64,000 nt of DNA, taken from the NCBI GenBank assembly GCA_029882975.1, contig JAOUJW010000001.1:1-64000 (forward strand), written 5' to 3'. Position 1 is the first letter of the stretch. The number at the start of each line of letters is the position of its first letter. This DNA is from Gammaproteobacteria bacterium (GTDB taxonomy: Bacteria; Pseudomonadota; Gammaproteobacteria; SZUA-152). The position numbers and the translations under genes were made by a program. The notes beneath the pieces were generated by a model. It ran no database searches. It had not been told where the DNA came from and saw nothing but the letters and a program-made list of their open reading frames with translations. This document shows, in pieces, positions 554 through 48,899 of this stretch.

Positions 554-1063
554 ATGAGCACCGGGGAAAACCGACATCTGGTCAAATTCATTATCACTTC
601 CGCAACCTGTTTTTTCATAGGCACCGTGCACGGGGTCTTACAAGTCATCCGCCCCATACGCGCCTGGCTGGACTCTATTGGCAGTCCCTACGGCGGTCCC
701 GGCCATATGATCGACCCATTGGCCCATGCCCATATTAACGTCGTGGGTGGGGTGGTGATCTTCATTATGGGTGCTTCATATTACTTGCTCCCAAAAATGC
801 TCAACGCGCCCATTTATTCACGCAAATTGGTGAGCCACACCTATTGGTGGACCACTTTGGGGATAACCGGTTTCTACAGTACACTGATGATATTCGGCAT
901 TTTGGAAGGCCAAGCTTTACTGGCGGACCCTACGGGCACGGAAGCTGCTGCCATACATCAATATTATGGTCGCACCATCGCCATCGTGGCTACCGTGATG
1001 GGTATGGGTTTTTGGATATTCTTTACCAACCTGTTCCTGACCATGAAACACAATCGCGCATGA
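554..1063 (+). CDS. Small haem-copper-oxidase subunit-I-like membrane protein
   Basis: 169 residues with about four membrane helices. The segment AHAHINVVGG near residues 57-66, followed by YYLLPK and a PIYSRK turn, matches the helix 2 to helix 3 region of cbb3/NorB-type catalytic subunits, where the His binds low-spin haem. The rest of subunit I (CuB and active-site histidines) is absent, so this is a stand-alone mini-version rather than a full oxidase. It may bind haem b. A paralogue is encoded at 22985-23506 within the respiratory region. The stop overlaps the ATG of the next gene (ATGA at 1060-1063), indicating translational coupling. Family resemblance is fairly clear; the function is inferred. 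Confidence 0.65.
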   Translation: MSTGENRHLVKFIITSATCFFIGTVHGVLQVIRPIRAWLDSIGSPYGGPGHMIDPLAHAHINVVGGVVIFIMGASYYLLPKMLNAPIYSRKLVSHTYWWTTLGITGFYSTLMIFGILEGQALLADPTGTEAAAIHQYYGRTIAIVATVMGMGFWIFFTNLFLTMKHNRA

Positions 1064-9978: not shown

Positions 9979-11283
9979 TTACGTTCTGCCTACAAAGTGT
10001 TGCACTCGGTACCGCGCCTGCCAACCATCCGTTGATTGCACCCGTACAAAAAAACTGTGCAAACCCTGAGGCATAGCAGCGGAAATCCGCAATTCCAGAT
10101 CGATACGCCCCGCCGCGGTAAATTCCACGCTGGGTTTGGTAATACTATATGCATCCCTATCCAAGCCTTCTATGCTAACAGATAGACGGGCATTTTCGTA
10201 TCGCTTGTTAAAAACCGCCACCCGATAGTCACGAATGGCACTACCATGATTCTGGTCAGCCCGGTACACGGATAAGTGATAGGGTTCATAGGAGTACAAA
10301 CCCCAAACGAACATCAATAAACCTAAGGTCGTAAAAGGTAATGTCCAACGCACTCGCGTGGATAATCCGGCCAGTCGTGTACTTACATTGGCCATTTTAT
10401 CGGGGTTGGTTTGTCCGATTTTGAAACTTAACAGAGCCGGTTTGGACTTTTTGGCTTGCAATCGTGCACAAGCAGTTATGCACTCACCACAGTTGACACA
10501 GCTGTCATAGACATTGGTTTGCTTGGGGTCCAGTTCCAAAAAACAGGCCGTGGTGCAAAAATTACACTTTTTGCATTCTGTGGAGCGTGTTTCATCGTAG
10601 TGTATATGCAAGGTCTGCTGCGTCTTGAAACCGTGCTGCCAAACTTTGTAAATACACATAAATCGACACCAAAAATGGCGAATAAAAGCCACATCCAACA
10701 ATACCAGCAGCACAAAAATTATATATATATAATGTAGAGATGCGGCCAAACCCGCGTTATCCTGTACAGTGATAAAAGCCCAGATTATTTGAGGCGGATA
10801 AAAATAAAGTAAGGGTATAAGCGCAAAAAACGCGGAAACCAACAACATCATACCGGATAAAACACCCCAGTTTAGCCAACGGTTTTTACGCGAGGCCAGT
10901 GCCATTTTCCGCCCCTCTAAACTGATTTCAGCCCGTTTCCCCAAGAGCTTTTTGGTCATGGCGTTGGCCCATTCCGACAAACTGTTTTGAGGACAGGACC
11001 ACCCACAGAACGCCGTACCTAGGGTGGAATACACCAATACCAAGGCGCTGGCCAATAAAATCCACATACCAAAAATAAGGAAAAAATCGGACCACCAGAT
11101 TTGACGTCCCAAGATCACAAATGCCCCGGCAATAGGGTCGATGCGCAACAATCCCGTGAGAGGCACCAAAACCAGCAGAGTGACGGTCAGTATTTGCACC
11201 GCCCGCCGTTGCCAATGCAGGCGATTGACAGGGCCCGGCACCACCGTAATGGGAATATCTTTTAACGAATCCTGGTTATTCAT
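9979..11283 (-). CDS. ccoG: Cytochrome c oxidase accessory protein CcoG (FixG/RdxA)
   Basis: 434 residues. About five membrane helices carry the CGWSCPQ motif on the first cytoplasmic loop. Two 4Fe-4S ferredoxin clusters follow (CKKCNFCTTACFLE and CVNCGECITACARL, about residues 245-285), then a C-terminal Ig-like periplasmic domain with another helix. CcoG proteins act in copper handling and assembly of cbb3 oxidases. The usual CRYMCPY motif reads CRFMCIYK here, so the Pro is replaced. It heads a run with the two-helix protein, cytochrome c and YtkA-like genes. No CcoI-type copper ATPase is in the window. Confidence 0.9.
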   Translation of the reverse strand: MNNQDSLKDIPITVVPGPVNRLHWQRRAVQILTVTLLVLVPLTGLLRIDPIAGAFVILGRQIWWSDFFLIFGMWILLASALVLVYSTLGTAFCGWSCPQNSLSEWANAMTKKLLGKRAEISLEGRKMALASRKNRWLNWGVLSGMMLLVSAFFALIPLLYFYPPQIIWAFITVQDNAGLAASLHYIYIIFVLLVLLDVAFIRHFWCRFMCIYKVWQHGFKTQQTLHIHYDETRSTECKKCNFCTTACFLELDPKQTNVYDSCVNCGECITACARLQAKKSKPALLSFKIGQTNPDKMANVSTRLAGLSTRVRWTLPFTTLGLLMFVWGLYSYEPYHLSVYRADQNHGSAIRDYRVAVFNKRYENARLSVSIEGLDRDAYSITKPSVEFTAAGRIDLELRISAAMPQGLHSFFVRVQSTDGWQARYRVQHFVGRT

Positions 11284-14053: not shown

Positions 14054-14413
14054 TCAAAACGGATAAAACCACACCACACCCGCCACAGCATGAGCCAATG
14101 CCAGAGTCATACTGAGTCCGGCGCAGACCATGTGGGCGACGAAAACAGGTTTGCCGTATACTCCCATAGCGATACCCAGGGCGCCGGTCGCTAACAACAG
14201 TAGCAGCAAGGGTACCCCCATAAAAAACATTACCTGACGTTTACGTTGGTCGCTAACCGCTACAATCTCACTGAGTTCATCCTGATTTTCTGTAAACCCT
14301 CGTAACACATGGGCGTTTTCAGATGGAGCGGTAGCCCCCATCCCCGCCTCAGGTTCTGCGAATGTGCACAGCGGGAATATAAGCAAACCAATTAATAATG
14401 TAACTATTTTCAT
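14054..14413 (-). CDS. Small membrane protein with signal peptide
   Basis: 119 residues from the ATG at 14413, six codons inside a longer frame, because this places the hydrophobic signal segment (IVTLLIGLLIFPL) at the N-terminus with cleavage after TFA. Two further helices lie at about 60-80 and 90-115, the second containing three spaced residues (HMVCAGLSMTLALAHAVAG) in which two His could bind haem. No family recognised. It is part of the - strand respiratory run and lies 80 bases from the next gene. Confidence 0.55.
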   Translation of the reverse strand: MKIVTLLIGLLIFPLCTFAEPEAGMGATAPSENAHVLRGFTENQDELSEIVAVSDQRKRQVMFFMGVPLLLLLLATGALGIAMGVYGKPVFVAHMVCAGLSMTLALAHAVAGVVWFYPF

Positions 14414-14796: not shown

Positions 14797-15882
14797 TTAT
14801 TTCTCACCTATCGTATCACTGTTCTTTGCACATCGAAATCCAAAAAAATCCGATGCGTAATACGGTAGGGAAAAATTTCGATGATAAGCAGCCGTGGCAA
14901 ACGGATCACTTTTCCATGAGCCTCCACGACGCACTTTGTATACACCTTTTTCAACGGGCACCAAATCAGCCACTTTCAGCGCTCGGTCTTGAGCCGTTTG
15001 AGCCACAACCACTTTCGGTTTAAACAAATCACCGGGAGCATCGGAGCCGGAGTAAGGCTTAAAGTCACTGCCGGTCCATTCACTCACATTACCTGCCATA
15101 TCGAATACACCGTATGGGCTGACAGCTTGAGTGTACTTATCCACGACAGTGGTAGCACCCACGTTGTAGTAGGTGTTTAATTTCGTTGGATCCATTTCGT
15201 TGCCCCATGGCCAGCGAACCCCAGTTTCACCGCGCGCGGCTTTTTCCCATTCTGCTTCGGTGGGTAAACGTTTACCCATAAACTCACAATAATTTCTCGC
15301 ATCATACCAGGACACCATAGTTACAGGGTGTAAAACTTTTTGATCCGGAATTCGTCCCTGCTTCCAGTCCGATGGTGGCCGATAGTTGGTTTTTGCCACG
15401 AATCGGGCATATTGTGCGTACGTCACCGGATATTTATCAATATAATAAGCATCCGTCCAAACCTTGTGTTGAGGTTTGTTTTGCGGGTCGGCACGTTCAC
15501 TGTCCGTCCCCATGGAAAAGTAGCCTGCTGGAATTTTGACTTGTGAATCCACATCCTGCCATTTTTCCGATGTTAGCAAGGTGCTAATTTCAGTTTCTGC
15601 GTAAGTAATTTGAGCTTCTTTCTGAAGCTCGTGTTGCTTATGTAACTCTATATCTTCACCTGCGGCACGTATATGTTTGTCTACATCCTTTAAATCGTAG
15701 CCTGCTTTGGAACGCATATCTGCCATGCGGTTAGAACCCAGTTTTACAACATGAATAGTCCCAAATACCATGGCTAAGGCTATACAAGTAATCAGGGTGG
15801 CTCCCAAAAAGAACTTACGTTTTTGTTGTTCTTCCGGTGTTAGTGCAAAACTACGTTGGCCACGCTGGTTCACTGGTTTCAC
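14797..15882 (-). CDS. Membrane-anchored SUMF1/NirV-like protein
   Basis: 361 residues. A membrane helix (about 27-47) is followed by a helical linker and a formylglycine-generating-enzyme-type domain from about residue 118 (IPAGYFSMGTDS, YPVTYAQYARFV, WYDARNYCEFMGKRLPTEAE, AGNVSEW, VRRGGSWK, FGFRCA). The Cys pair expected after RGGS in true formylglycine enzymes is missing (RGGSWKSDPF), so it should not act as an oxidase of sulfatase Cys residues. NirV and similar proteins next to nitrogen-oxide reductases share this fold. The GTG start overlaps the previous stop (GTGA, 15879-15882). Confidence 0.8.
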   Translation of the reverse strand: MKPVNQRGQRSFALTPEEQQKRKFFLGATLITCIALAMVFGTIHVVKLGSNRMADMRSKAGYDLKDVDKHIRAAGEDIELHKQHELQKEAQITYAETEISTLLTSEKWQDVDSQVKIPAGYFSMGTDSERADPQNKPQHKVWTDAYYIDKYPVTYAQYARFVAKTNYRPPSDWKQGRIPDQKVLHPVTMVSWYDARNYCEFMGKRLPTEAEWEKAARGETGVRWPWGNEMDPTKLNTYYNVGATTVVDKYTQAVSPYGVFDMAGNVSEWTGSDFKPYSGSDAPGDLFKPKVVVAQTAQDRALKVADLVPVEKGVYKVRRGGSWKSDPFATAAYHRNFSLPYYASDFFGFRCAKNSDTIGEK

Positions 15883-16385
15883 CCTTTAGCGCCAGAATCG
15901 TGATTCTGTAATTCGTCCACGTTGGATCCCGCTTCCGGTTGATTTTGACCTGGCTGGATTAATTTACGTTTAGCATCTTCTGGGGAAGTTCGCCCATAGA
16001 TACGTTTGATCCAAATTTCTCCCAATACACCACCAATTGCAGCACATTCCACAGCCAAAATCACATAAAACAACCACCAACCCACAGGCATTAACTCTGC
16101 CCCCTGTGGTATTCCTATCAGGTATTGAGTCTCAAAATACGCCACGGACCTAACAATAAATGGAGGGAAATAACACAACCATTTACCACCGAGACCGAAG
16201 ATGGCTGAGACCGAAATCCCCACCACAACAGGCCAAATAAATAATTGCAGGAACCATAAGAAATTAAAGGTTTGCAGCCCCCAAAACAACTCAATACGAA
16301 CCCCAATTACACGGTCTCCCAGGTAGTTCACCAGGCATCCCACGATAATTGCCAAAGTACCGGCCCAAAAACGTTGTCTATTCAT
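15879..16385 (-). CDS. Four-helix membrane protein
   Basis: 168 residues with about four hydrophobic helices (about 6-26, 38-62, 65-85, 100-125) and a hydrophilic C-terminal tail of about 40 residues. No cofactor motif is obvious. The ATG overlaps the stop of the cytochrome c gene before it (ATGA, 16382-16385), and its own stop overlaps the GTG of the SUMF1-like gene, so the three are translationally coupled. I do not recognise the family. A role as membrane partner of the adjacent cytochrome and SUMF1-like protein is likely from context. Confidence 0.6.
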   Translation of the reverse strand: MNRQRFWAGTLAIIVGCLVNYLGDRVIGVRIELFWGLQTFNFLWFLQLFIWPVVVGISVSAIFGLGGKWLCYFPPFIVRSVAYFETQYLIGIPQGAELMPVGWWLFYVILAVECAAIGGVLGEIWIKRIYGRTSPEDAKRKLIQPGQNQPEAGSNVDELQNHDSGAKG

Positions 16386-16870
16386 GGTTGATACGGTGTT
16401 CCTGTGAGTTTTTCATGTTCTGATTTCCTGGCTTGTTCCAGATACCAATCTTCGACCTTAAGGCTATCCATATACATTGCCAGCAAACGACGATCGCTTT
16501 CATCTAGCCCCGCATAGGAAGGCATTTGAAATTCTTTTTTAAGTCGTGACGGGAGTACCGCTTGCGGATTTTCAGCAGAAAAATATTTATAAAACCAGGA
16601 TTCCTCGCGAATGGAGCCGATACCATCCAATGCAGGTGCCGGTACCGATTGCATGATGTTTTTTAAGCCACCGTAAGCATGACAACGTCGACAATCCAGT
16701 TTTCGCATGAGCAATAAAGCTTGCGATTCTTGTTCCTTGGCGGCTGTCGAATAAAATGGTATACCTCTATCCGGTTGCGTATCCTTGGACATGGACAGAG
16801 TTTTTAAGCCTGCCCCAATTAATACCGACACGCCAATCACGGCCAGTATAATAACCTCACCCCTCTTCAT
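16382..16870 (-). CDS. Membrane-anchored mono-haem cytochrome c
   Basis: 162 residues. An uncleaved N-terminal helix (about 5-25) anchors a class I cytochrome domain with CRRCH (about residues 60-64), LDGIGSIREESWFYKYF and a probable Met ligand in FQMPSY. The protein at 23507-24091 has a matching layout, including LDGVGSVR followed by W-x-Y-x-F, so the two are paralogues. Such anchored cytochromes typically deliver electrons to a periplasm-facing oxidase or reductase. It is transcribed upstream of, and coupled to, the four-helix and SUMF1-like genes. Confidence 0.8.
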   Translation of the reverse strand: MKRGEVIILAVIGVSVLIGAGLKTLSMSKDTQPDRGIPFYSTAAKEQESQALLLMRKLDCRRCHAYGGLKNIMQSVPAPALDGIGSIREESWFYKYFSAENPQAVLPSRLKKEFQMPSYAGLDESDRRLLAMYMDSLKVEDWYLEQARKSEHEKLTGTPYQP

Positions 16871-17199: not shown

Positions 17200-17514
17200 C
17201 TAAAACAAAAACCCATGCATCATTTGCGCAGCACCAAAGACGATGGCCACCAAAACCCCAAACATAATCCAGGCAAACATCCATTTTTCACCGGTTTTTA
17301 ATTTGGCTCCACCTTCCTTTTTTCCATTGTCCTTGAACATAAACATCAAGGTGATTCCAACAAAAACCAGAATAGCAACAATAAGAAAGTAGAAAATTCC
17401 CACGCTGAACTGCTGTGAGCTCATACTCTCGATACTCATATCGATACCGAACGGCCGGGCTTTCTCTTCTGTACCAAGCAACGGGATTAAAAACTGTGCA
17501 GCCTGCTCCAACAT
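17200..17514 (-). CDS. Small two-helix membrane protein
   Basis: 104 residues with two strongly hydrophobic helices (about 38-60 and 80-102) separated by a Lys/Gly-rich cytoplasmic loop (KDNGKKEGGAKLKTGEK). It is the first gene after the terminator at 17636-17670 and seems to start a new transcript with a -10-like TATAAT about 40 bases upstream. No recognised family. Its downstream neighbours are the CcoS-like protein, the cytochrome c and the SUMF1-like protein, so an accessory role in respiration is inferred. Confidence 0.55.
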   Translation of the reverse strand: MLEQAAQFLIPLLGTEEKARPFGIDMSIESMSSQQFSVGIFYFLIVAILVFVGITLMFMFKDNGKKEGGAKLKTGEKWMFAWIMFGVLVAIVFGAAQMMHGFLF

Positions 17515-17687: not shown

Positions 17688-17822
17688 TTACTTGGAATAG
17701 GTGTCAATACCTTCTTTGTCTTTGTCGTATTTATCGACGAAAAAGCTGTAGATAAATGGAGCGGTGTATACCGTCAGTACCCAAATTAACATTGCAAATG
17801 GGCCATTATCCAAATCAATCAT
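17688..17822 (-). CDS. 44-residue CcoQ-like membrane peptide
   Basis: The ATG at 17822 follows GGAGAAC, and the frame runs 44 codons to TAA. One membrane helix (about residues 9-28) is followed by a charged tail (VDKYDKDKEGIDTYSK). Size, topology and position (the last gene of the oxidase operon, 27 bases after the subunit gene at 17850 and just before the terminator) match CcoQ-type small subunits of cbb3 oxidases, although there is no strong sequence signature. It is short enough to be missed by automatic annotation. Confidence 0.6.
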   Translation of the reverse strand: MIDLDNGPFAMLIWVLTVYTAPFIYSFFVDKYDKDKEGIDTYSK

Positions 17823-17849
17823 AATAGTTCTCCTCTGATTTGCTCTGTT

Positions 17850-18479
17850 TTAGTGGGACTTGCTATGGTCCGGTACGTAACTGTAGTTAGGCAACCGCTT
17901 AACCGTAATCATTACACTCACACAGAAAATAATGATAAAGAAGATATCAATGGTGTAACCCTTATCCCACCAGGGCTGCACACGTTCACGAGTTCCATCC
18001 TCGCGCCAGTTACCTTCAAAGTTAGCCAGCACCAGGCGGTTACCCAGAACTGTGTACTCTTCCAAATGAGCCTTTTTATTTTGCAGCTCAATGATAGCAT
18101 CTTTGATCAGACGTAAATCATCCATATCGATAGGATGACGGTCCAACAAAGGAACCCACTTAGAACCTTCCGCTCTGGCTTTATTGACCATATGCTCCAT
18201 TTTTTTAGCATCGTCTTTAATCGCCATCACTTCAGCGGAATCCATCCATTTAACGTAATCCGCATAAATCGCAGCGCTGGGGCGTTGGCCCCACAAAGGT
18301 GCTGTAATTAAGAATGCAGTTACGATGGTCAGAATCAACAAACCCACCACAGGCTGTGGCAAACGGTTATTGTTTTCTGCGATACCACCGAGGCTCTCGC
18401 CTTCCCATGTTTTCTTTGCTTCTTCGTTCTGGTCGTCAGTTGTCATACTGAACAAAGGATTATCAAACTTCCACGCCAT
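17850..18479 (-). CDS. Haem-free two-helix oxidase-operon subunit (CcoP-like membrane part)
   Basis: 209 residues, AAGGGAG before the ATG. An N-terminal cytoplasmic segment leads into GIAENNNRLPQPVVG, which resembles the start of CcoP (GI-E-NN-LP), and then a helix (about 43-62). After LWGQRP comes a periplasmic domain of about 105 residues, then a second helix (about 174-193). CcoP normally carries two haem c domains; here there is no CxxCH at all. The WG-x-RP motif and the helix pair recur in the protein at 9527-9976. It may be a structural subunit that replaces CcoP, or may hold an electron-entry domain of unknown type. Confidence 0.6.
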   Translation of the reverse strand: MAWKFDNPLFSMTTDDQNEEAKKTWEGESLGGIAENNNRLPQPVVGLLILTIVTAFLITAPLWGQRPSAAIYADYVKWMDSAEVMAIKDDAKKMEHMVNKARAEGSKWVPLLDRHPIDMDDLRLIKDAIIELQNKKAHLEEYTVLGNRLVLANFEGNWREDGTRERVQPWWDKGYTIDIFFIIIFCVSVMITVKRLPNYSYVPDHSKSH

Positions 18480-18491
18480 GTCTCAGCTCCC

Positions 18492-19442
18492 TTATTTCAG
18501 GTTAAGTACAAAATCGATTAAAGCACGAGCTTCACTATCAGCTGCCGGTACCGGCACCTCAGGTGGATAAACTCGCTCGTTGGATACGTATTTGTTGTAT
18601 TCAGTACGCCAGCCATCGAAATCGATCGTGTTACCTTTCGCGTCCTTCTCACCCCAGAGGTAATCATAGCGAGGCATGATTGAATGGGGTTGAACCAGAC
18701 GAGGATTGAAGAAATGCATAATCATCCACTCTCTGGAAGAGTTACGCGAGCCCACGTGAGTCAAGTCAGGCGCTTTTCGGTCAGATCCAAATGCAGTGGG
18801 TGATTCACCATTAAAGTCACCGAGCATTGGAGGTGCACCAAAATACTGCCAGTCTTGGGTTTGCTCAGGCAGCAATGTGTGACACCACCAGCAACCTTCG
18901 CGAACAAACATGATTTTGCCTTTACCTACCAACATGGTGTTTTCTTCGGTCGCCACTTTCATGGTAGCTTCCGGAGACCAACCGCGGGTAGCCGTGGCAT
19001 TCTCAATGTAAGGAACAGCCTCACCATCACGGTCTTCTGTGCGAATAACAAATACCGCACCTTTGGTGTCGTCAGCCGCCAGGATTTTACCCTTGTTTAC
19101 ACTCAGATCCTGGGGTTTGGCACCCAATATAATGGGGTGACGAATACCGTTAGGGAACGGAGCGTTCGCTGGATAAACAAATGCACGTGTTGGCTCTATA
19201 GGAGCACCGGTTTTCGGGTCTTCTGAAATATGAACCGTAGCAGGCTTGGCTACACCCGTCATAAAGGGGTCTTCATAAGAGAAGCCACCCATTCGACCGA
19301 AGGCCAACTGTCGATCCAAACCAACTTCCGTTACCGATACATTCCTGATGTCAGTCGCCGGCATATACAGCGTAATGAACATCGAGGACCCGAAGGCGAG
19401 ACCAAACATTCTCGCCCCGATTGTATATTCTCTAAATGCCAT
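18492..19442 (-). CDS. CcoO-like mono-haem cytochrome c subunit
   Basis: 316 residues, with GGGAGG before the ATG. A short N-terminal helix (about 10-28) is followed by about 125 residues rich in turns, which lie between the helix and the haem domain and are not usual in CcoO. The cytochrome domain begins at GKIMFVREGCWWCH (about 181-194), close to the CcoO pattern VREGCYNCH. Further CcoO-like features are APDLTHVGSRNSSREW, FFNPRLVQPHSIMPRY (probable Met ligand), and a C-terminal helix. It should take electrons to the catalytic subunit from the periplasm. It lies 31 bases downstream of that gene. Confidence 0.8.
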   Translation of the reverse strand: MAFREYTIGARMFGLAFGSSMFITLYMPATDIRNVSVTEVGLDRQLAFGRMGGFSYEDPFMTGVAKPATVHISEDPKTGAPIEPTRAFVYPANAPFPNGIRHPIILGAKPQDLSVNKGKILAADDTKGAVFVIRTEDRDGEAVPYIENATATRGWSPEATMKVATEENTMLVGKGKIMFVREGCWWCHTLLPEQTQDWQYFGAPPMLGDFNGESPTAFGSDRKAPDLTHVGSRNSSREWMIMHFFNPRLVQPHSIMPRYDYLWGEKDAKGNTIDFDGWRTEYNKYVSNERVYPPEVPVPAADSEARALIDFVLNLK

Positions 19443-19473
19443 GGATTATTTCCTCCCAATACTTTTCTAATTA

Positions 19474-20880
19474 TTAGCGTTCGTAAGCAAGTTCGTGCGG
19501 CAAACGTCCGGCAGGAATCAGAGTTCCTTCACGCATCGTTTTCCACATGTTAACCAGCCATACGCAGTTACCGAGGAATACCATGGTGCCACCCACCCAG
19601 CGTGCAATCATGTATGGGTGTTCAGCGATAACAACGTCAATGTAAGGCACTTCGTAGATCTTCCCTGCACCTTGAATCAACCCGGCAATGGTCATGGATA
19701 CCCAGTAAGTGGAGAATCCGATCAGCAACATCCAGAAGTGGAAGTTAGCCAGAGCCAGAGAGTACAGTTTTCTGCGCAGCAATGTTTGCAGACCGTAGTA
19801 GACAGCAGCCGCTTCCAGGAATGTTGAGAACCCCAACAAAGCCAAGTGAGCATGAGCCACGATCCAACCGGTTCCGTGGATGTACCAGTTAATGGCACGA
19901 GTTTGCTGGAAACCGCCTTGCATGTTCAACGGAATGGCGAGCAATACACCGGTGATGGTGAATTTGATCTCGATATTCTCAACGAACATTTTCCACTTGC
20001 CAGACATGGTCAACAGCAAGTTGGATACGAAAGCGATAGCAGGTACCAGAATCAATACACCCTCTACAGAGGCGAAAGATTTCAACCACTCTGGCAGCGG
20101 AGCAGACATCAAGTGATGTGCAGCCGGTGTAGAGTAGAACACGACAACTGACCAGAAGTGCAAGTGGCCAATGCGGTGAGAGTACAAAGGATTACCAGTT
20201 ACTTTAGGTACGATGTAGTAAGAGATCGCAGCCGCAACCGGAGTAATCCACAAGCCCAATACGTTATGAGCAAACCACCAGGTTAGATAGGCTTCGGTCA
20301 AACCGGTCAACTGGAAAAATTCAGGTGAATTACCCACGGTGAATACAATGATTACCATGAAAGTAGCAGCACCGAAGAACCAGTTGGTGGTGTAGATACC
20401 TTGGGTACGGCGGGTTTTGATAGTCATCCACACGTTGATACCCAGAGGCAGCAGAATACCGAAAATGATAGCCAGATCGATAGGCCAGATCATGTCAGAG
20501 TATTCACGACCGGAGCTAATACCGAACCACAACAGGGTCAGGCCCAGAGCCAAACCAATATTCCAGATCAGGCAGTTCCATACACCCAGTTTTTCAGACC
20601 ATAGTTTGGTGTTACCCAACGCAGGTGTGATGTACATCATTGCCATAGCGAAAGCCATGGAGATCCAGCCTAAAATTACAGCCAGTACATGCACCTGACG
20701 CATGTGTCCGAAAGAAAGCATTTCGATACCGGTAACGAAGTCCGGAAATGCCAGTTTAGCAGCATTGAAGGAACCCAGACCGGTGCCCACAATAAACCAC
20801 AATATTGAAGAAAAACCGAAGAATATCGCAGCAGAACCTGCTGGGATGTCTTCTTCTTTTTTAAATAAATACTTAACCAT
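19474..20880 (-). CDS. Divergent cbb3-like haem-copper oxidase catalytic subunit
   Basis: 468 residues, about 12 membrane helices, GGAGGGG before the ATG. Ligand motifs: RQVHVLAVILGW (low-spin haem His, helix 2), WWFAHNVLGLWITP (CuB His, helix 6), YSTPAAHH (two CuB His, helix 7) and HGTGWIVAHAHLALLG (helix 10 His pair). A Tyr sits six residues before the helix-7 His pair, as in cbb3 oxidases, which favours oxygen reduction. Aligned by eye, the conserved helix-9 Glu of cbb3 (FEGP) reads MQGG here, so Gln replaces Glu. The HGT stretch also resembles NorB. NO reduction cannot be excluded, but the Tyr argues against it. Confidence 0.82.
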   Translation of the reverse strand: MVKYLFKKEEDIPAGSAAIFFGFSSILWFIVGTGLGSFNAAKLAFPDFVTGIEMLSFGHMRQVHVLAVILGWISMAFAMAMMYITPALGNTKLWSEKLGVWNCLIWNIGLALGLTLLWFGISSGREYSDMIWPIDLAIIFGILLPLGINVWMTIKTRRTQGIYTTNWFFGAATFMVIIVFTVGNSPEFFQLTGLTEAYLTWWFAHNVLGLWITPVAAAISYYIVPKVTGNPLYSHRIGHLHFWSVVVFYSTPAAHHLMSAPLPEWLKSFASVEGVLILVPAIAFVSNLLLTMSGKWKMFVENIEIKFTITGVLLAIPLNMQGGFQQTRAINWYIHGTGWIVAHAHLALLGFSTFLEAAAVYYGLQTLLRRKLYSLALANFHFWMLLIGFSTYWVSMTIAGLIQGAGKIYEVPYIDVVIAEHPYMIARWVGGTMVFLGNCVWLVNMWKTMREGTLIPAGRLPHELAYER

Positions 20881-20915
20881 TTTTAATCACCCCTCCCCAA
20901 AAATATTCTTCGCGA

Positions 20916-21020
20916 TCATATCTGATTCTTTAAACTGTCACGCGGCATCAATAAATACCAACCAAACCACATGCTGGAAAACGCCAGCGCTATGCAAAAG
21001 ATAGATGCAAACATTGCCAT
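20916..21020 (-). CDS. 34-residue membrane peptide
   Basis: The ATG at 21020 is preceded by AAGGGGATT and the frame ends at TGA 20916-20918. One hydrophobic helix (about residues 3-25, ending with WFGWYLLMP) is followed by a short polar tail. It lies 35 bases before the catalytic-subunit gene, in the same direction. Its place resembles that of tiny subunits such as CcoM/CcoQ/CydX. No sequence family recognised. Too short for usual gene finders. Confidence 0.6.
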   Translation of the reverse strand: MAMFASIFCIALAFSSMWFGWYLLMPRDSLKNQI

Positions 21021-21079
21021 GGTTACAATCCCCTTTATTTAATTAATTAAAATGATTATTTCCGTTTAGCAAAATCAGC

Positions 21080-21337
21080 TTATGCTTTTGCTTCCAGTTG
21101 ATTATGACGATTCACAGCGATGTGTAATGTCAGATAGAACGCCAGGCCGAAAATGATCATGGCCCAATCAACAAAGCCCGTGAAGGTAGTAGGATCATAG
21201 GCGGTACCGAACCAGCCACCCCAGTCATCGAATTTTCCTCGGCCCAAAAAGCACATCAACGCAGCTCCGAATACGCTGCCGTTGCCCATACCGGTGACCA
21301 CGCCTGATATAAAACATAGTATAAATGGATTTCTCAT
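21080..21337 (-). CDS. Small two-helix membrane protein, first gene of the oxidase operon
   Basis: 85 residues from the ATG at 21337, which has GAGGAGG upstream; a TTG two codons earlier lacks such support. Two hydrophobic helices (about 4-28 and 55-75) flank a loop with GRGKFDDWGGWFGTAYDP, rich in Gly, Trp and acidic residues. I do not recognise the family. It begins the run 21337 -> 17688 that contains the catalytic, CcoO-like and haem-free subunits, so it is likely another structural or assembly component. Confidence 0.6.
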   Translation of the reverse strand: MRNPFILCFISGVVTGMGNGSVFGAALMCFLGRGKFDDWGGWFGTAYDPTTFTGFVDWAMIIFGLAFYLTLHIAVNRHNQLEAKA

Positions 21338-21765
21338 CCCCAAAACCTCCTCACTTTGCCTATATTCTAATTTTATTTAGTTGAAACGTTTCGTTTTTTA
21401 AGGGGCCGATAATGGAAAGCGCTTAGATCCATTCCAAAGACGGTCCAGTTCCCCAACTACACCAAACTTACCCTTATTATTCGCTTAAGGTTTTAATGGC
21501 ACGAAATCGTGTCACATGTGGTACATCAGGTCAAGCATTTTTGCCCGACTTATTGACCACCCTGTTAATACCCAGTTTGTCACTGCGATTATATTGGCTA
21601 TTTCCTAACCTGCCACATTAAGTGTCTGTTTTATATTCTGCAATACAGCGATATAATGCATTTCTTTATTTACAATACTGTTGCAATTTACTGCGTGTCT
21701 ACGCTTGACCCGAACCCGACCACACGTTAGGTGTTCCACGCTCTCTTGATATTGAGACCTAGACT
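21338..21765. other. Divergent intergenic region upstream of the oxidase operon
   Basis: 428 bases with no credible gene, expected to hold promoters for both directions. Palindromes seen: GAAACGTTTC (21383-21392) about 45 bases from the operon start, and CACGAAATCGTG around 21500. A TATAAT occurs on the + strand at 21652-21657, without a convincing -35. I found no FNR/Anr-type TTGAT-N4-ATCAA site. Confidence 0.4.
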
Positions 21766-22451: not shown

Positions 22452-22988
22452 TTAACCGGCCTCCGCTACTTTCTCTAAATCCTGCTTGGAAGCATTGGCT
22501 GCCTGCATGGTACGTAAAATCAAATCCAACTCGCCATACAGCATTCGCCCAGCCTGCTTAAAGCGCACTACTTGATTCGCGTCAATAATATAAGTCCAGG
22601 GGTCGCCGATAACCCCAAAAGCCTTAAACGCCTGCGGATTTTGGTACTGATCCATATGCAAAAAGATCACATCATCTTCATATTTAACCAGTAGGGCCTT
22701 GAGCATTTGCAACTGCTTGTCGCAGACCGTGCAATGGCCGGGGGTAGCAAATTCTAAAACGATAGTCTTGCCTGAATTTAACGCCACATCCAGTGACAAT
22801 TGATACATCCGCTTATCCGGGTAACGGTACGTGGTAATACGGCTGAAATCACCCCCTACATCAGCCAGAGTTTTTGTTGGCAGACTGGGCGCTTTCATGC
22901 CGATTTTCAGGGAACTGTCATCAATGGAACAACCCACCATAGCACTTAGGAATAGCAGACTCAGTACAAGCTTGGGTAGCACGTTCAT
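22452..22988 (-). CDS. Thioredoxin-like lipoprotein (TlpA/SCO-type)
   Basis: 178 residues from the ATG at 22988, chosen because GGAG stands before it and it overlaps the previous stop (ATGA). The signal peptide ends in a lipobox (AMVGC). The thioredoxin-like domain carries CTVC in FATPGHCTVCDKQ, with a cis-Pro-like DPWTYIID strand later and a C-terminal helix. Periplasmic thioredoxin-like lipoproteins reduce or deliver metal to cytochromes and oxidases; SCO and TlpA act in copper-site assembly. It lacks the extra His expected in SCO near the C-terminus as far as I can tell, so TlpA-type is preferred. Confidence 0.7.
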   Translation of the reverse strand: MNVLPKLVLSLLFLSAMVGCSIDDSSLKIGMKAPSLPTKTLADVGGDFSRITTYRYPDKRMYQLSLDVALNSGKTIVLEFATPGHCTVCDKQLQMLKALLVKYEDDVIFLHMDQYQNPQAFKAFGVIGDPWTYIIDANQVVRFKQAGRMLYGELDLILRTMQAANASKQDLEKVAEAG

Positions 22989-23506
22989 AATACTTTTCTC
23001 CATCCGGCACAGGTTTTAAACAGATTGTACGCCCAAATGAAGTTCGCTGTTAATACCAGAGTCCCAAATATTCCCATGGTTGCCAATAAGGGTTTCACCA
23101 TGGCCTCAACCTGCTCCATTGTGTGGGTTTCACCGGCTATACCTCCGGTCACCCCGGCGGTGGTAAAAAATACGACCATACCGATTAACCCAAAATTGTG
23201 TACCCAAAAATGCCATTTAACTAGAGCCATGCTGTAAATTGGTTTGCGCACTAAGCGCGGAATCACATAGTAAACAGCACCAAAAATCGCCATTTCCACC
23301 CAACCTAAAAGGTTAATATGAGTATGGGCACGAACAATCAGATTACCGTGGACTCGATGATCCACAAAATACCTTAACTCGGAGATACCGCCCATCAGGG
23401 CACCCCAGGTAAATCCAATCAAGCTATAGATGATGCAGGCGTAGATAAACCAAAGTGTATACTTGGTGTATTCCGGATCATCCCACCCGTGTTTTTCGGT
23501 AGACAC
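22985..23506 (-). CDS. Small haem-copper-oxidase subunit-I-like membrane protein (second copy)
   Basis: 173 residues, GTG start with AGGAGG eleven bases upstream and directly following the stop of the cytochrome gene. Four hydrophobic helices. RAHTHINLLGWVEMAIFG (about residues 58-75), then YYVIPRLVRKPIYS and a WHFWVHNFG segment, correspond to helices 2-3 of cbb3/NorB catalytic subunits. No CuB-site histidines. It is a paralogue of the protein at 554-1063. A haem-b-binding partner of the anchored cytochrome encoded just upstream is a reasonable inference. Confidence 0.68.
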   Translation of the reverse strand: MSTEKHGWDDPEYTKYTLWFIYACIIYSLIGFTWGALMGGISELRYFVDHRVHGNLIVRAHTHINLLGWVEMAIFGAVYYVIPRLVRKPIYSMALVKWHFWVHNFGLIGMVVFFTTAGVTGGIAGETHTMEQVEAMVKPLLATMGIFGTLVLTANFIWAYNLFKTCAGWRKVL

Positions 23507-24224: not shown

Positions 24225-24965
24225 TTAGTACTGATCCGGAATCCGGCTGTTGCCCACCGTGGTGTTCTCAGCGGAAGTCAGGAACGTAGCAACATTATAG
24301 ATGTCTTCATCAGTCATTTTGCTGGCTACTTTTCTCATTTGAGCCATGGGATCGTTAGCACGGCTACCATCACGCCATTTTTTCAGCTGATTGACCATGT
24401 AAACGTATTTCTGTCCGCCCAGCATGGGATATACAGGAAATGCGCCGCGGCCATTGTATCCGTGACAGGAATGACAAGCCGGGATGCCGCGCTCCGGAGC
24501 TCCGTGTTGCGCCAGACCTTTACCCAAATAGCGCACACCGACAGGAACGCTGCCCAGGTTCTTTACGGCAGCCATATCAGAACCAGCAATGGGTTGCTTC
24601 ATGCTGGCTGCAAAGGCAGAAACATCACGACGCTCTTGAGAAGTCAAACCCTTGGCATTGGTATTCATGATGAACATGGTTTTGTCTTCGCGCTTATCAG
24701 TAGCGAAATCTTCCAATTGTTTTACCAGGAAGTTATAACCCTGACCCGCCAGACGTGGCGTACCCATATTGTCGTCACCCAGGCCTTCGTTGCCGTGACA
24801 GCCAGTGCAAGCCGGTACAGTATCGCCTTTACCGTTCATGAATATCTTTTTACCATTTTCCAAGTCGCCCAGATCACTGTAGCTCACACTGCCACTAGCG
24901 AGTACTGATGCAGATGACACCATGGTTATCACTGCTAACGCGACTCTTATTTTTGTACGTTGCAT
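24225..24965 (-). CDS. Di-haem cytochrome c4-like protein
   Basis: 246 residues from the ATG at 24965, preceded by GGGAGGG. The signal peptide is cleaved near VLASGS (about residue 24). Two cytochrome domains follow, each with one haem: CTGCHGNEGLGDD with later GxPRLAGQ (about 52-75), and CHSCHGYNGRG with MLGGQK (about 164-185). Met ligands lie in the QR/KMT-type C-terminal helices. Di-haem c4 proteins are periplasmic electron carriers that feed terminal oxidases, which fits the neighbourhood. It is flanked by a terminator and a tiny peptide gene. Confidence 0.88.
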   Translation of the reverse strand: MQRTKIRVALAVITMVSSASVLASGSVSYSDLGDLENGKKIFMNGKGDTVPACTGCHGNEGLGDDNMGTPRLAGQGYNFLVKQLEDFATDKREDKTMFIMNTNAKGLTSQERRDVSAFAASMKQPIAGSDMAAVKNLGSVPVGVRYLGKGLAQHGAPERGIPACHSCHGYNGRGAFPVYPMLGGQKYVYMVNQLKKWRDGSRANDPMAQMRKVASKMTDEDIYNVATFLTSAENTTVGNSRIPDQY

Positions 24966-25150
24966 AAAACACACCCTCCCGTATTATAAATTCTATTCCG
25001 GCCAACTGGATTCGTTTACGTGTTTATTACCCAGATGTACCTCTCCCCGATAACTTAACACCTTATTTCACTACTCTAATACACGTCTCTCATAGCTTCT
25101 CATGATTCTCACTCTTCCAGCATCCAGGCACCTCGCCCTTTGAACAACAA

Positions 25151-45479: not shown

Positions 45480-47246
45480 CTAAAACTCGCCACGGGTATT
45501 GTGTTCACCACTACGCCGCTCAGTGATCACCGAACTGCATTGATCACTGCTGGTCGGATTAGTGCCTGCGGGAACCTGGTACACATGACAGGAGCCGGAA
45601 CAGTCACGCATCTCGGTGACGGTATACTTGGCGTCTCCACAAGCAGTATGCGGACCAGGACGATAGTCATTGGCGTGACACCCGGCACAAAATGGCTGAT
45701 GACTGGGGGCACGCCACGTAACGGTCTCCGTGTTTCCGGTATGACAGTGAATACAGCGAACACTGCTGCGGTGGTCCCCTGGATATTGGGCAGAAACATG
45801 ATCATATCGGGCGGGAACCCAGGCCGTCGTTCGATGGCATTCATTACATTGTTTGGACGTCGCAAAATGCTGGGTTGGTTTATTATGACAACTGCTGCAG
45901 GGTTGGGTCACACTGGTATGATCAAAGCGAACATTGAGCCAACTGGTGCTAACATGACAATCCTCGCAGGTATTGGATGACTGTACATGGCCGTTGGGTT
46001 TGCTGTGACAAGTACTGCAGGCTGCCGTTGTACTGGAATGATCAAAGTTAACCGAAACCCAACTACGGGTATTATGGCAGTCTTCGCAACGGTTGGTTGA
46101 TTGCACATGGCCATTGGGTTTACCCGTGGCATTAGTCCCGTTGTGGCAATTGTAGCAATTAGCGACAATATTGCTGTGATCTACCGAAGCAGAGTTCCAA
46201 GCCGTGGTATTGTGGCAATCGTCACACGTATTTGATGATTGCATATGCCCTGCCGGCTTGGTATGGCAATTACTGCAGGGGCCGGTCACAGTGCTGTGAT
46301 CAAACACAACGGACTGCCAGCCTCGAGTATTATGGCAGGCATCGCATTCCTGCGAGGTCATTAGATGACCGCTGGGTTTGTCATTACCGTGACATTGACT
46401 GCAAGTGCCTGCGCGTACACTGCTGTGATCAAACCGTGACGCCTCCCAACTGCGAGTACTATGGCAATCCTCACATTGATTGGAAGAAGATACATGTCCA
46501 TTGGGTTTGTTATGACAGCTGCTGCATCCACTAGTGATGTTAGTGTGATCAAACCCCGCACCATTCCAGCCACGAGTGCTGTGACAGGCATTACACTCCT
46601 GCTGAGTTTGGACATGGTTGGACGGTTTCGTATGACAACTGCTGCATGGTGCCGTGATATTGCTGTGATCAAAGTTTGCCGAACTCCAGTTACGAGTATC
46701 ATGACAATCCTCACACCGCTCAGACGAGGCAATATGTCCCGCCGGTTTGCGGTGACAACTGGCACAAGCACCCGTCACCTTGGAATGATCGAAAAACACG
46801 GGCGACCACGCTATGGTCCCATGACATTGATCGCATTCTGCGCTGGTGTTCACATGCCCTGAGGACACTTTATGGCAGTTACGGCAACTGCCTTTAACCG
46901 CCGAGTGATCTACCGTAGCCGTATCCCAGGTAAAAGTGGTGTGACAGTCATCACAGGAATTGTTCGTGATGATATGCCCGGAATTCTTCCCCGGAGCGCG
47001 CCTGTTGTCGTGACAACCACTGCAGGTTTTTGGTGTACCTTTAAATACACCGCGCTTGTGGCACGAATCGCAACTGACTCGAATATGTTCACCACTCAAG
47101 GGAAACCCGGTTGTAAAATGGTCAAAATCACCGTCTTTTTTTGCAAAAGCCAATTCGCTGAATCCAATAGAACTCAGCAAAACAAATATTATAGTTATTA
47201 TGGAAGATCTCATTGTCGTACCTAAGGCAGCACTAAAAGGTTTCAT
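45480..47246 (-). CDS. Multihaem cytochrome c with 23 CxxCH motifs
   Basis: 588 residues, GAGG upstream of the ATG. A signal peptide ends near FAKKDG. I counted 23 canonical CxxCH motifs plus one CSGSCH (CX3CH) near the C-terminus. After a first unit resembling the tri-haem module of the neighbouring cytochrome come nine di-haem modules of mostly 40 residues: FDHS..., CxxCH, KP-GH, then CxxCH-TR-W. The extra FDH and GH histidines could serve as second axial ligands, giving bis-His haems. Such chains conduct electrons in the periplasm or across the outer membrane. It is between the 21-haem gene and the barrel gene. Confidence 0.9.
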   Translation of the reverse strand: MKPFSAALGTTMRSSIITIIFVLLSSIGFSELAFAKKDGDFDHFTTGFPLSGEHIRVSCDSCHKRGVFKGTPKTCSGCHDNRRAPGKNSGHIITNNSCDDCHTTFTWDTATVDHSAVKGSCRNCHKVSSGHVNTSAECDQCHGTIAWSPVFFDHSKVTGACASCHRKPAGHIASSERCEDCHDTRNWSSANFDHSNITAPCSSCHTKPSNHVQTQQECNACHSTRGWNGAGFDHTNITSGCSSCHNKPNGHVSSSNQCEDCHSTRSWEASRFDHSSVRAGTCSQCHGNDKPSGHLMTSQECDACHNTRGWQSVVFDHSTVTGPCSNCHTKPAGHMQSSNTCDDCHNTTAWNSASVDHSNIVANCYNCHNGTNATGKPNGHVQSTNRCEDCHNTRSWVSVNFDHSSTTAACSTCHSKPNGHVQSSNTCEDCHVSTSWLNVRFDHTSVTQPCSSCHNKPTQHFATSKQCNECHRTTAWVPARYDHVSAQYPGDHRSSVRCIHCHTGNTETVTWRAPSHQPFCAGCHANDYRPGPHTACGDAKYTVTEMRDCSGSCHVYQVPAGTNPTSSDQCSSVITERRSGEHNTRGEF

Positions 47247-47291
47247 ATCGCAGATCCTCTGGTTAAGGCGTCACTGGTCCAACCAGGATTC

Positions 47292-48899
47292 CTAAAACGA
47301 GCCCATTCGGACTTCCTCAAATTTGGTCTGATTATGACAACGATCACAAACCCGACCAAACCCCCCATCATGCGCATCGTCTGCCGCATGACACCCTACA
47401 CAAGAATTTGGTAAGCGTAATTCTGAGTGTTTGCTTACCGGATAACGGTGGCATATCAGGCAATCAATGCCTTTATGCGCACCTTTCAATGGAAACTCGG
47501 TTCTTTTGTCGTGATTAAAATCCCAAGCCTTGAAATCATTTGACACGTGACACAAACCGCAGCGCGGACCCAATTTGGACTTATGGACATCATCCGCCTT
47601 GTGGCAGGCCACACAGCGAAACTCTGCCTCTCGAAAATTGGAAGAACTGTGGCATTCTTCGCACGCCAATGCCGCATGTGACCCCAACAACGGAAAGCGG
47701 GCAAGATTATGATCAAACTCCACATCTGCTACCCAGCCCTTTTCCGTGTGGCAATCGTTGCAAGCTTTACCGTGCTCACCACGGTGTACATCGTGGGGCC
47801 GGTGGCAAGCGTAGCATTGGGTTTTAACCTTGTCTTTGTACAAATGTCCCGGATGGCAATCGCGACATGTGACTTTCTTATGTTTGTGTTTTAACGGAAA
47901 GTCCGTTTTATCGTGATCAAATGTCGTCTTTGACCAGGAGCGTGCACTGTGACAATCCTGGCATTTCTTACCGTATTGTCCTTTGTGCTGATCAGAAAAC
48001 CGGTGGCAGGAATAGCAATCGGTTTTGAGTTTTTTCTTAAACGGGTTTTCACCTTTTTTATGACACTGCTCGCAAGTCACTTTTTTGTGACGCCCAATGA
48101 GTTTAAAGTCCGTTTTGTCGTGATCAAATTTTTCCTCTGTCCAGCCAAAAGGGTTATGACATTCCTTACATTTGTTGCCATATCGTCCTTCGTGCTTATC
48201 ATCGCTTTTGTGGCAGGAAAAACATTTTGTAGGCACCGACACATATCGCTCTTGCGGATGACAATCTCGACACTCCACGCCTTTATGCTTACCAGTTAAA
48301 GCAAACTTGGTTTTGGAGTGGTCAAATTGAAAGTCATTCCAACTGGTTTCACGATGGCAACTGTTGCAAACTTTTCCCAATTTACCTTTATGGGGTTCCT
48401 GTTTCTCATGGCAGTCGATACACTGACTTTTCGCCTGATAATATTTCTTGTCCTTTTTGTGACAGGCCTGACATTGGGTCTCCCTGTGCGTTCCGCGCAA
48501 AGGAAAATCTGTCTGACCGTGATCGAATGTCTGCTTATCAAATAAAACAATATCCGCTTTTCGACCCAAATGTTCTCTGTGGCAGACTTTACAATCCTTT
48601 TTATTGATACCGGGAATTCGTCCGTGGTAACCCCGCTTGGACTGAATGTCTTTCTTAATATTCTTATGATCGTGGCAATTCAAACACAGGGCATTCTGGC
48701 TGGACTGGCTGAACATTTTATGACACTCGGTACATTTATCTTCAAATTTCGCATGCGCTTCACTCAGTTCTCCAGGCATCAAGGCTTTTTCCATGGAGTC
48801 CAGCACATCCGCGGAAGATACCTTTAACAATGATGCAAATAGAGAAACAGCCATAATCAGCAGCAGCCCAACTTGATTGGGCTTACGACCCCCTAACAT
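47292..48899 (-). CDS. Multihaem cytochrome c with 21 CxxCH motifs
   Basis: 535 residues. A signal peptide (about 1-29, VSSADV) leads to 21 CxxCH motifs. Three lie in an N-terminal part, then six tri-haem modules of about 65 residues: FDHDKTDF-L-x-H, CxxCH, CxxCH-x-D-H-G, then CxxCH-x-W. Each haem has an extra His available (in FDH, KH and D-H), consistent with bis-His ligation. It is strongly basic (Lys-rich), unlike the neutral neighbouring cytochrome. Probably a periplasmic electron wire; the module is like cytochrome c3/c7 repeats. Located between the membrane protein and 23-haem genes, 46 bases before the latter. Confidence 0.92.
   Translation of the reverse strand: MLGGRKPNQVGLLLIMAVSLFASLLKVSSADVLDSMEKALMPGELSEAHAKFEDKCTECHKMFSQSSQNALCLNCHDHKNIKKDIQSKRGYHGRIPGINKKDCKVCHREHLGRKADIVLFDKQTFDHGQTDFPLRGTHRETQCQACHKKDKKYYQAKSQCIDCHEKQEPHKGKLGKVCNSCHRETSWNDFQFDHSKTKFALTGKHKGVECRDCHPQERYVSVPTKCFSCHKSDDKHEGRYGNKCKECHNPFGWTEEKFDHDKTDFKLIGRHKKVTCEQCHKKGENPFKKKLKTDCYSCHRFSDQHKGQYGKKCQDCHSARSWSKTTFDHDKTDFPLKHKHKKVTCRDCHPGHLYKDKVKTQCYACHRPHDVHRGEHGKACNDCHTEKGWVADVEFDHNLARFPLLGSHAALACEECHSSSNFREAEFRCVACHKADDVHKSKLGPRCGLCHVSNDFKAWDFNHDKRTEFPLKGAHKGIDCLICHRYPVSKHSELRLPNSCVGCHAADDAHDGGFGRVCDRCHNQTKFEEVRMGSF

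Follow-up and report, generated by a model that had tools for sequence, protein, structure and literature searches.

The window analysed here is a 64,000-nucleotide stretch of a gammaproteobacterial genome, and it carries a cassette of sixteen recurring genes between positions 14054 and 24974 (Table 1). The core consists of an 87-aa gene, ccoN, ccoO and a 209-aa gene encoding a CcoP homologue. These four genes and those for the 104-aa membrane protein, the CcoS-like protein, the 162-aa cytochrome and the short COX1-like protein are present in all of the full-length loci compared (40/40).

Table 1. Features of the oxidase cassette, with positions in the window.
Feature	Position	Strand	Basis and conservation
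Membrane-anchored FGE-sulfatase-fold protein	14797..15882	-	PF03781 1.8e-55; 37/40 loci
Membrane-anchored mono-haem cytochrome c, 162 aa, candidate electron donor	16382..16870	-	Pfam Cytochrom_C; 40/40 loci
CcoS/FixS-like small protein, 98 aa	16886..17182	-	FixS 23.0 bits against cut-off of 23.1, borderline; 40/40 loci
104-aa membrane protein	17200..17514	-	40/40 full-length loci
CcoP homologue without haems, 209 aa (helix 1 as in CcoP, periplasmic domain lacking haem, helix 2)	17850..18479	-	FixP_N; L124 homologue; AlphaFold
Glu35 codon, opposite second Glu of canonical GIEEYDNPLP	18375..18377	-	77/77 readable family members
Mono-haem CcoO-like subunit of 316 aa with a single CWWCH and the Met of SIMPRY	18492..19442	-	Pfam FixO; PDB CcoO chains
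CcoO insert, about residues 64-167, missing in canonical CcoO and sister locus L124	18942..19253	-	alignment
CcoN-like catalytic subunit, 468 aa, C-family haem-copper oxidase	19474..20880	-	Pfam COX1; TIGR00780; 3mk7_A; tree
Gln321 codon (Glu323 in P. stutzeri numbering)	19918..19920	-	3mk7_A alignment; invariant 81/81
His255-His256 codons (His257/258, CuB ligands)	20113..20118	-	family alignments
Tyr249 codon (Tyr251, active-site tyrosine)	20134..20136	-	family alignments
Conserved 87-aa two-helix membrane protein upstream of ccoN	21080..21343	-	invariant GMGNGSVF motif; AlphaFold; 40/40 loci
Thioredoxin-like lipoprotein with CxxC, possibly assembly	22452..23003	-	Thioredoxin/AhpC-TSA just below cut-off; 32/40 loci
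173-aa protein like the last four CcoN helices, HxH pair kept	22985..23506	-	COX1 61 bits, profile 305-429; 40/40 loci
Membrane-anchored mono-haem cytochrome c, 194 aa	23507..24091	-	Cytochrom_C 2.3e-9; 39/40 loci
Di-haem cytochrome (c4/Cyc1-like), candidate periplasmic electron carrier	24225..24974	-	two Cytochrom_C stretches; 32/40 loci

Judged from its sequence, the 468-aa protein is a CcoN homologue. It matches the Pfam COX1 profile with 257 bits, and a phmmer search identified CcoN of Pseudomonas stutzeri (3mk7_A, E=2.1e-60) as its best solved relative. The ccoN profile TIGR00780 also recognises it (1.2e-64), with a score of 219 bits that falls far below the equivalog cut-off of 583. All six haem/CuB histidines (His64, 205, 255, 256, 343 and 345) are present, and Tyr249 lies six residues ahead of His255-His256 on helix 7 in 81/81 family members, in agreement with the preliminary description of this DNA, which had recognised the cbb3 tyrosine and the expected His ligands. 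Gln321, Tyr249, every His ligand, Glu126 and Asp129 are invariant among the same 81 CcoN-like proteins. The helix-7 Tyr, the placement in the tree and a mono-haem CcoO partner are those of the C family; the CcoN equivalog score, Glu323 and the di-haem CcoP of canonical CcoNOQP are all missing.

The preliminary description had also proposed, from an alignment by eye, that the conserved helix-9 Glu (FEGP) is replaced by Gln (MQGG), and this proved correct. In the phmmer alignment, NMQGGFQQ stands opposite TFEGPMMA of P. stutzeri CcoN, and as the closest gap is about 48 residues away, it is Gln321, not a Glu, that occupies the position of Glu323. Gln is found in 81/81 aligned family members and in every clade sequence added later (L129, L132-L135 and L155-L175, a few of which duplicate earlier records); this constancy means that it is neither a sequencing error nor a chance substitution. 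Glu occupies position 323 in all canonical CcoN proteins, 20/20 in one sample and 38/38 in a second, giving 57 in total with the one sequence (L182) common to both. In a wider alignment of haem-copper oxidases, drawn from whole genomes of Pseudomonadota only, Gln is shared by the window clade, its sister L124 and a third C-type group (L125, L127, L181 and L185-L188; 7/7 proteins), and NO reductases (NORs) have Trp or Phe at this position. The L125-type group has Gln without the other replacements of the window clade, so that Gln alone does not track iron oxidation. This group is rare and scattered over gamma- and other proteobacterial genomes, and its partner subunits are a mono-haem CcoO and a cytochrome c CcoP-like protein. 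When 399 Pseudomonadota genomes were searched with the L125 protein (E<=1e-75), 6 gave a match, including the window's own genome, which was matched through the 468-aa gene.

Several further positions are fixed in both groups with different residues, including Tyr237/His235, Ser240/Gly238, Tyr317/Ala315, Glu125/Asp129 and Thr321/Asn319 (canonical CcoN/window clade), and Glu273, Glu304 and Glu356 are kept solely or nearly solely in the window clade. Arg57, Glu122, His207, Tyr251, His257/258, Asn289, Thr293 and Asn333 are common to both. We take Glu323 to lie close to haem b3, and Tyr237, Ser240 and Tyr317 presumably contribute to the one K-like proton route of cbb3 enzymes or are arranged along it. 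The replacement of these three residues could signify a different or weaker proton route. The periplasmic cavity of cbb3 is made by Arg57, Glu122 and Glu125 (PMC3431322).

Regarding the partner subunits, the 316-aa protein is matched by FixO (1.4e-18, residues 167-266, the match beginning at profile position 45) and by PDB CcoO chains (2e-14). The single haem of this subunit had been listed as an oddity, which it is not, for one haem is the normal state of CcoO; the roughly 125 extra residues noted at the same time were confirmed, the start of the haem domain being shifted by about 122 residues towards the C-terminus relative to the FixO profile. The third subunit had been described as a haem-free two-helix protein that replaces the di-haem CcoP. 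The 209-aa protein indeed contains no CxxCH, but "replaced" does not apply, since FixP_N, the L124 homologue and Glu35 mark it as a CcoP homologue. FixP_N is the sole recurring match in the family (22/31 members), although the window copy itself scores 18.4 bits against a Pfam cut-off of 24.9. The sister locus L124 encodes a compact 114-aa homologue (EEYDGIKEGNGKIPWW) that exceeds this cut-off (26.2) next to a CcoO of 173 aa without the insert, and L124 thus bridges the canonical and window forms. The Glu opposite which Glu35 is aligned is, we assume, the proton entrance in the cbb3 oxidases of R. sphaeroides and V. cholerae. An AlphaFold model of the 209-aa protein shows two long helices (42-62 and 175-195) around a small helical domain; compared with PDB folds it gave no meaningful match, leaving the periplasmic domain without a known fold relative. 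By these profile and residue matches, the protein is CcoP without its haems and not an unrelated replacement.

The 87-aa protein is modelled by AlphaFold as two long helices (pLDDT 87), and it matched no known family in profile searches and no fold in the PDB. CcoQ gave no match; the cassette includes two small unassigned membrane proteins, one of 87 and one of 104 aa. The cassette cytochromes are likely electron donors standing in for the missing haems of CcoP. In Sideroxydans ES-1, a cyc1 homologue adjoins a cbb3 cluster (PMC8788666). The FGE-sulfatase-fold protein, too, is retained in most of the cassette loci (37/40). A second short protein resembling the end of CcoN (169 aa, 554-1063, plus strand) comprises the last four helices only and keeps the HxH haem-ligand pair. 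Two short proteins of the 173-aa/169-aa type were found in nearly every clade genome checked, and they may be haem-binding half-size relatives of CcoN. The window also encodes a CcoG-like ferredoxin membrane protein with Fer4_5 and Fer4_18 domains (9979-11283, minus strand), perhaps an assembly factor of the oxidase; a profile search of the genome for FixG_C found no match. Elsewhere, two neighbouring multihaem cytochromes of MtrC/c7-like type (45480-48899, minus strand; 23 and 21 CxxCH) suggest extracellular electron transfer, and a 939-aa protein contains many ankyrin repeats and Sel1 repeats (52870-55689, minus strand).

A scan of genome contigs recovered 80 relatives whose CcoN is 81-96% identical to that of the window, from gammaproteobacterial metagenome-assembled genomes and from Gallionella, Sideroxydans, Ferrovum, Nitrotoga and Mariprofundaceae records. 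The four-gene order (87-aa gene, ccoN, ccoO, 209-aa gene) is found again in iron oxidisers of the beta-, gamma- and zetaproteobacteria and in Nitrotoga, and the four genes are together in nearly all relatives, the exceptions being contigs that end inside the cluster and locus L069. In L069, the 87-aa gene (18063-18302) lies about 9 kb from ccoN instead of directly upstream, the sole core rearrangement seen. A phylum-wide protein search gave a bimodal result, with clade members at 77-100% identity, other CcoN proteins at 27-33% and none between. Gamma- and zetaproteobacterial members share 77-81% identity, which indicates tight sequence constraint. The Nitrotoga fabula record (L058) has the Gln form. 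In the sampled genomes of family f73 there are two C-type forms in all, the window clade and canonical CcoN; one f73 sequence (L155) is identical to a Mariprofundaceae sequence (L077).

Phylogenetic analysis (IQ-TREE, LG+C20+F+G4, rooted on NORs) indicated that the window clade is monophyletic (100/99) with L124 as its sister (98/95). The other half of the C family unites canonical CcoN with the L125-type proteins (98/90), and the whole C family is separated from cNOR and qNOR with 100/100 support. The 468-aa protein also stands apart from the A- and B-like sequences. The window clade, as placed by this tree, is inside the C (cbb3) family, outside canonical CcoN and not with the NO reductases; it forms a separate Gln clade with 27-33% identity to canonical CcoN.

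This topology bears on the direction of the Gln/Glu change. With the NOR root, the Gln clade is sister to a group containing both L125-type Gln and canonical Glu (98/95 and 98/90), so that a single change accounts for the data, and Gln in 7/7 proteins of the L125/L181 type agrees with Gln as the ancestral state of C-type oxidases and Glu as derived in canonical cbb3. We give this reading, which is compatible with a working oxidase, not quite an even chance. When the Gln column and long sequences were dropped, support for canonical plus L125-type decreased to 87/83, and a tree joining all Gln sequences in one clade was not rejected (AU p=0.32). Moreover, the NOR outgroup is very distant, with Trp or Phe at the site, and the sampling covers Pseudomonadota only.

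The window's genome is 99.4% complete and contains one full-length haem-copper oxidase and one CcoO. No bd oxidase was found in it, and a search for alternative oxidase, run without a positive control, also found none. The window clade likewise provides the only full-length haem-copper oxidase, with no bd oxidase, in three genomes of the same class (G021, G022 and G052) and in three elsewhere in the phylum (G132, G136 and G167). This sole-oxidase status together with the 77-81% identity between gamma- and zetaproteobacterial members is the main argument that the complex is a working O2 reductase. Most likely, the window encodes a functional O2-reducing C-type terminal oxidase of a lithotrophic, probably iron-oxidising chain, belonging to a deep, Gln-fixed sister clade of canonical CcoNOQP. 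Published work on other organisms supports this reading: Sideroxydans ES-1 expresses the cbb3 genes of both forms at a high level (PMC8788666), expression of cbb3 genes has been recorded in iron mats of Zetaproteobacteria (PMC7029218), and Nitrotoga fabula is predicted to use cbb3 as its oxidase (PMC6050957).

The same evidence weighs on three other interpretations. That the protein reduces or otherwise handles NO would be conceivable from its divergence, from the ability of some cbb3 enzymes to reduce NO as well (PMC8780969) and from a NirK-like copper protein in the genome, the score of which is below the curated cut-off. However, NORs carry a helix-6 Glu (HLWVE, four residues after the His) and have no helix-7 Tyr, whereas the 468-aa protein has Gly209 and Tyr249, and on these residues together with the tree the NOR reading was rejected; several near-complete genomes moreover have no recognised respiratory oxidase but that of the clade. 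That the protein reduces or handles NO and is not an oxidase is therefore highly improbable. NirS-like matches in the genome are short, scattered fragments of propeller type and were judged not to be NirS. An inactive, degenerate or accessory pseudo-oxidase, to which the loss of haems from CcoP might point, is the least probable of all, in view of the strong sequence constraint, the invariant ligands, the several genomes without another recognised oxidase and the high expression of the relatives' cbb3 genes (PMC8788666). Somewhat less remote, yet improbable, is neutral drift to Gln, without functional meaning, in an otherwise ordinary cbb3 oxidase. The intact Tyr and metal ligands would accord with such drift, but Gln is fixed in every sampled clade member and in another C-type lineage, Glu is found in 57/57 canonical proteins, and three further canonical invariants are changed alongside Gln in the window clade.

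For the O2-reducing oxidase favoured here, electrons from the cassette-encoded periplasmic c-type cytochromes would pass straight to the single haem c of CcoO, and from there through haem b to the haem b3-CuB centre with its cross-linkable Tyr249. Proton entry from the cytoplasm would begin at Glu35 of the haem-free CcoP homologue and follow a K-like route remodelled by the exchange of Tyr237, Ser240 and Tyr317 for His, Gly and Ala. More speculatively, a neutral Gln in place of a buried carboxylate is predicted to raise the potential of the active site, which would suit high-potential donors such as Fe(II) or nitrite. A broader proposal combines these points: deep Gln lineages would have been overlooked, Gln would be original and Glu a later acquisition, and the Gln clade, whose CcoP lacks haems and whose K-route is remodelled, would be a high-potential version for Fe(II)/nitrite oxidation. 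We regard this proposal as tentative and rather unlikely.

Compared with the canonical CcoNOQP enzymes of known structure (P. stutzeri 3mk7/5djq and R. capsulatus 6xkw), the complex shares the CcoN fold and ligands, Tyr251, the Arg57/Glu122 region, a mono-haem CcoO and a CcoP helix 1 with a conserved Glu. It differs in a CcoN of 27-33% identity with Glu323 changed to Gln, Glu125 to Asp, Tyr237 to His, Ser240 to Gly and Tyr317 to Ala, in a CcoO insert of about 120 residues, in a haemless CcoP and in additional cassette genes. The earlier statement that the gene set does not match canonical ccoNOQP is accordingly upheld by the separate Gln clade, the CcoO insert, the haem-free CcoP and the TIGR00780 score (219 against 583). 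As Ahn et al. are said to have reported in 2015, V. cholerae cbb3 with CcoP cut to its membrane part still assembles. That engineered enzyme resembles the window form as an assembled C-type oxidase with haem-free CcoP and probable proton entry via the CcoP Glu; the window form is natural, unlike it, and has a different periplasmic domain. cNOR and qNOR belong to the same superfamily, but the window protein lacks the helix-6 Glu ligand, has the Tyr and lies on a separate branch.

The lineage itself is not new, as annotations of cbb3 oxidases in Sideroxydans, Gallionella, Mariprofundus and Nitrotoga go back years (PMC8788666, PMC7029218, PMC10734462). Two reports describe two cbb3 forms in Zetaproteobacteria and Sideroxydans, assigned to the proximal and distal subtrees of Ducluzeau 2008 and unlike in subunit composition (PMC7029218, PMC8788666), and Gallionellaceae mostly have one or other of the two (PMC10734462). 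The organisms (Sideroxydans, Gallionella and Zetaproteobacteria) and the existence of two forms differing in subunits are the same as here. Since the two C-type forms in f73 genomes are the window clade and canonical CcoN, the window clade is most likely the distal form, and the shared organisms also point to this assignment. The accessible literature on iron-oxidiser cbb3 oxidases contained no mention of Gln at the Glu323 position and no description of a haem-free CcoP, nor was a description of the active-site and subunit differences of the Gln clade found in the accessible literature. The Gln clade is a real, deep and widespread cbb3 variant of an already known lineage, not a new kind of enzyme.

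Energy conservation in iron and nitrite oxidisers takes place chiefly at the terminal oxidase. To our knowledge, arguments about what the helix-9 Glu and the K-route residues do in cbb3 oxidases draw almost wholly on the Pseudomonas, Rhodobacter and Vibrio enzymes. The Gln clade is a natural, whole clade without the helix-9 Glu and the K-route residues that appears to sustain aerobic life alone, and because it has culturable members (Sideroxydans, Mariprofundus and Nitrotoga), the question of the Gln is directly testable.
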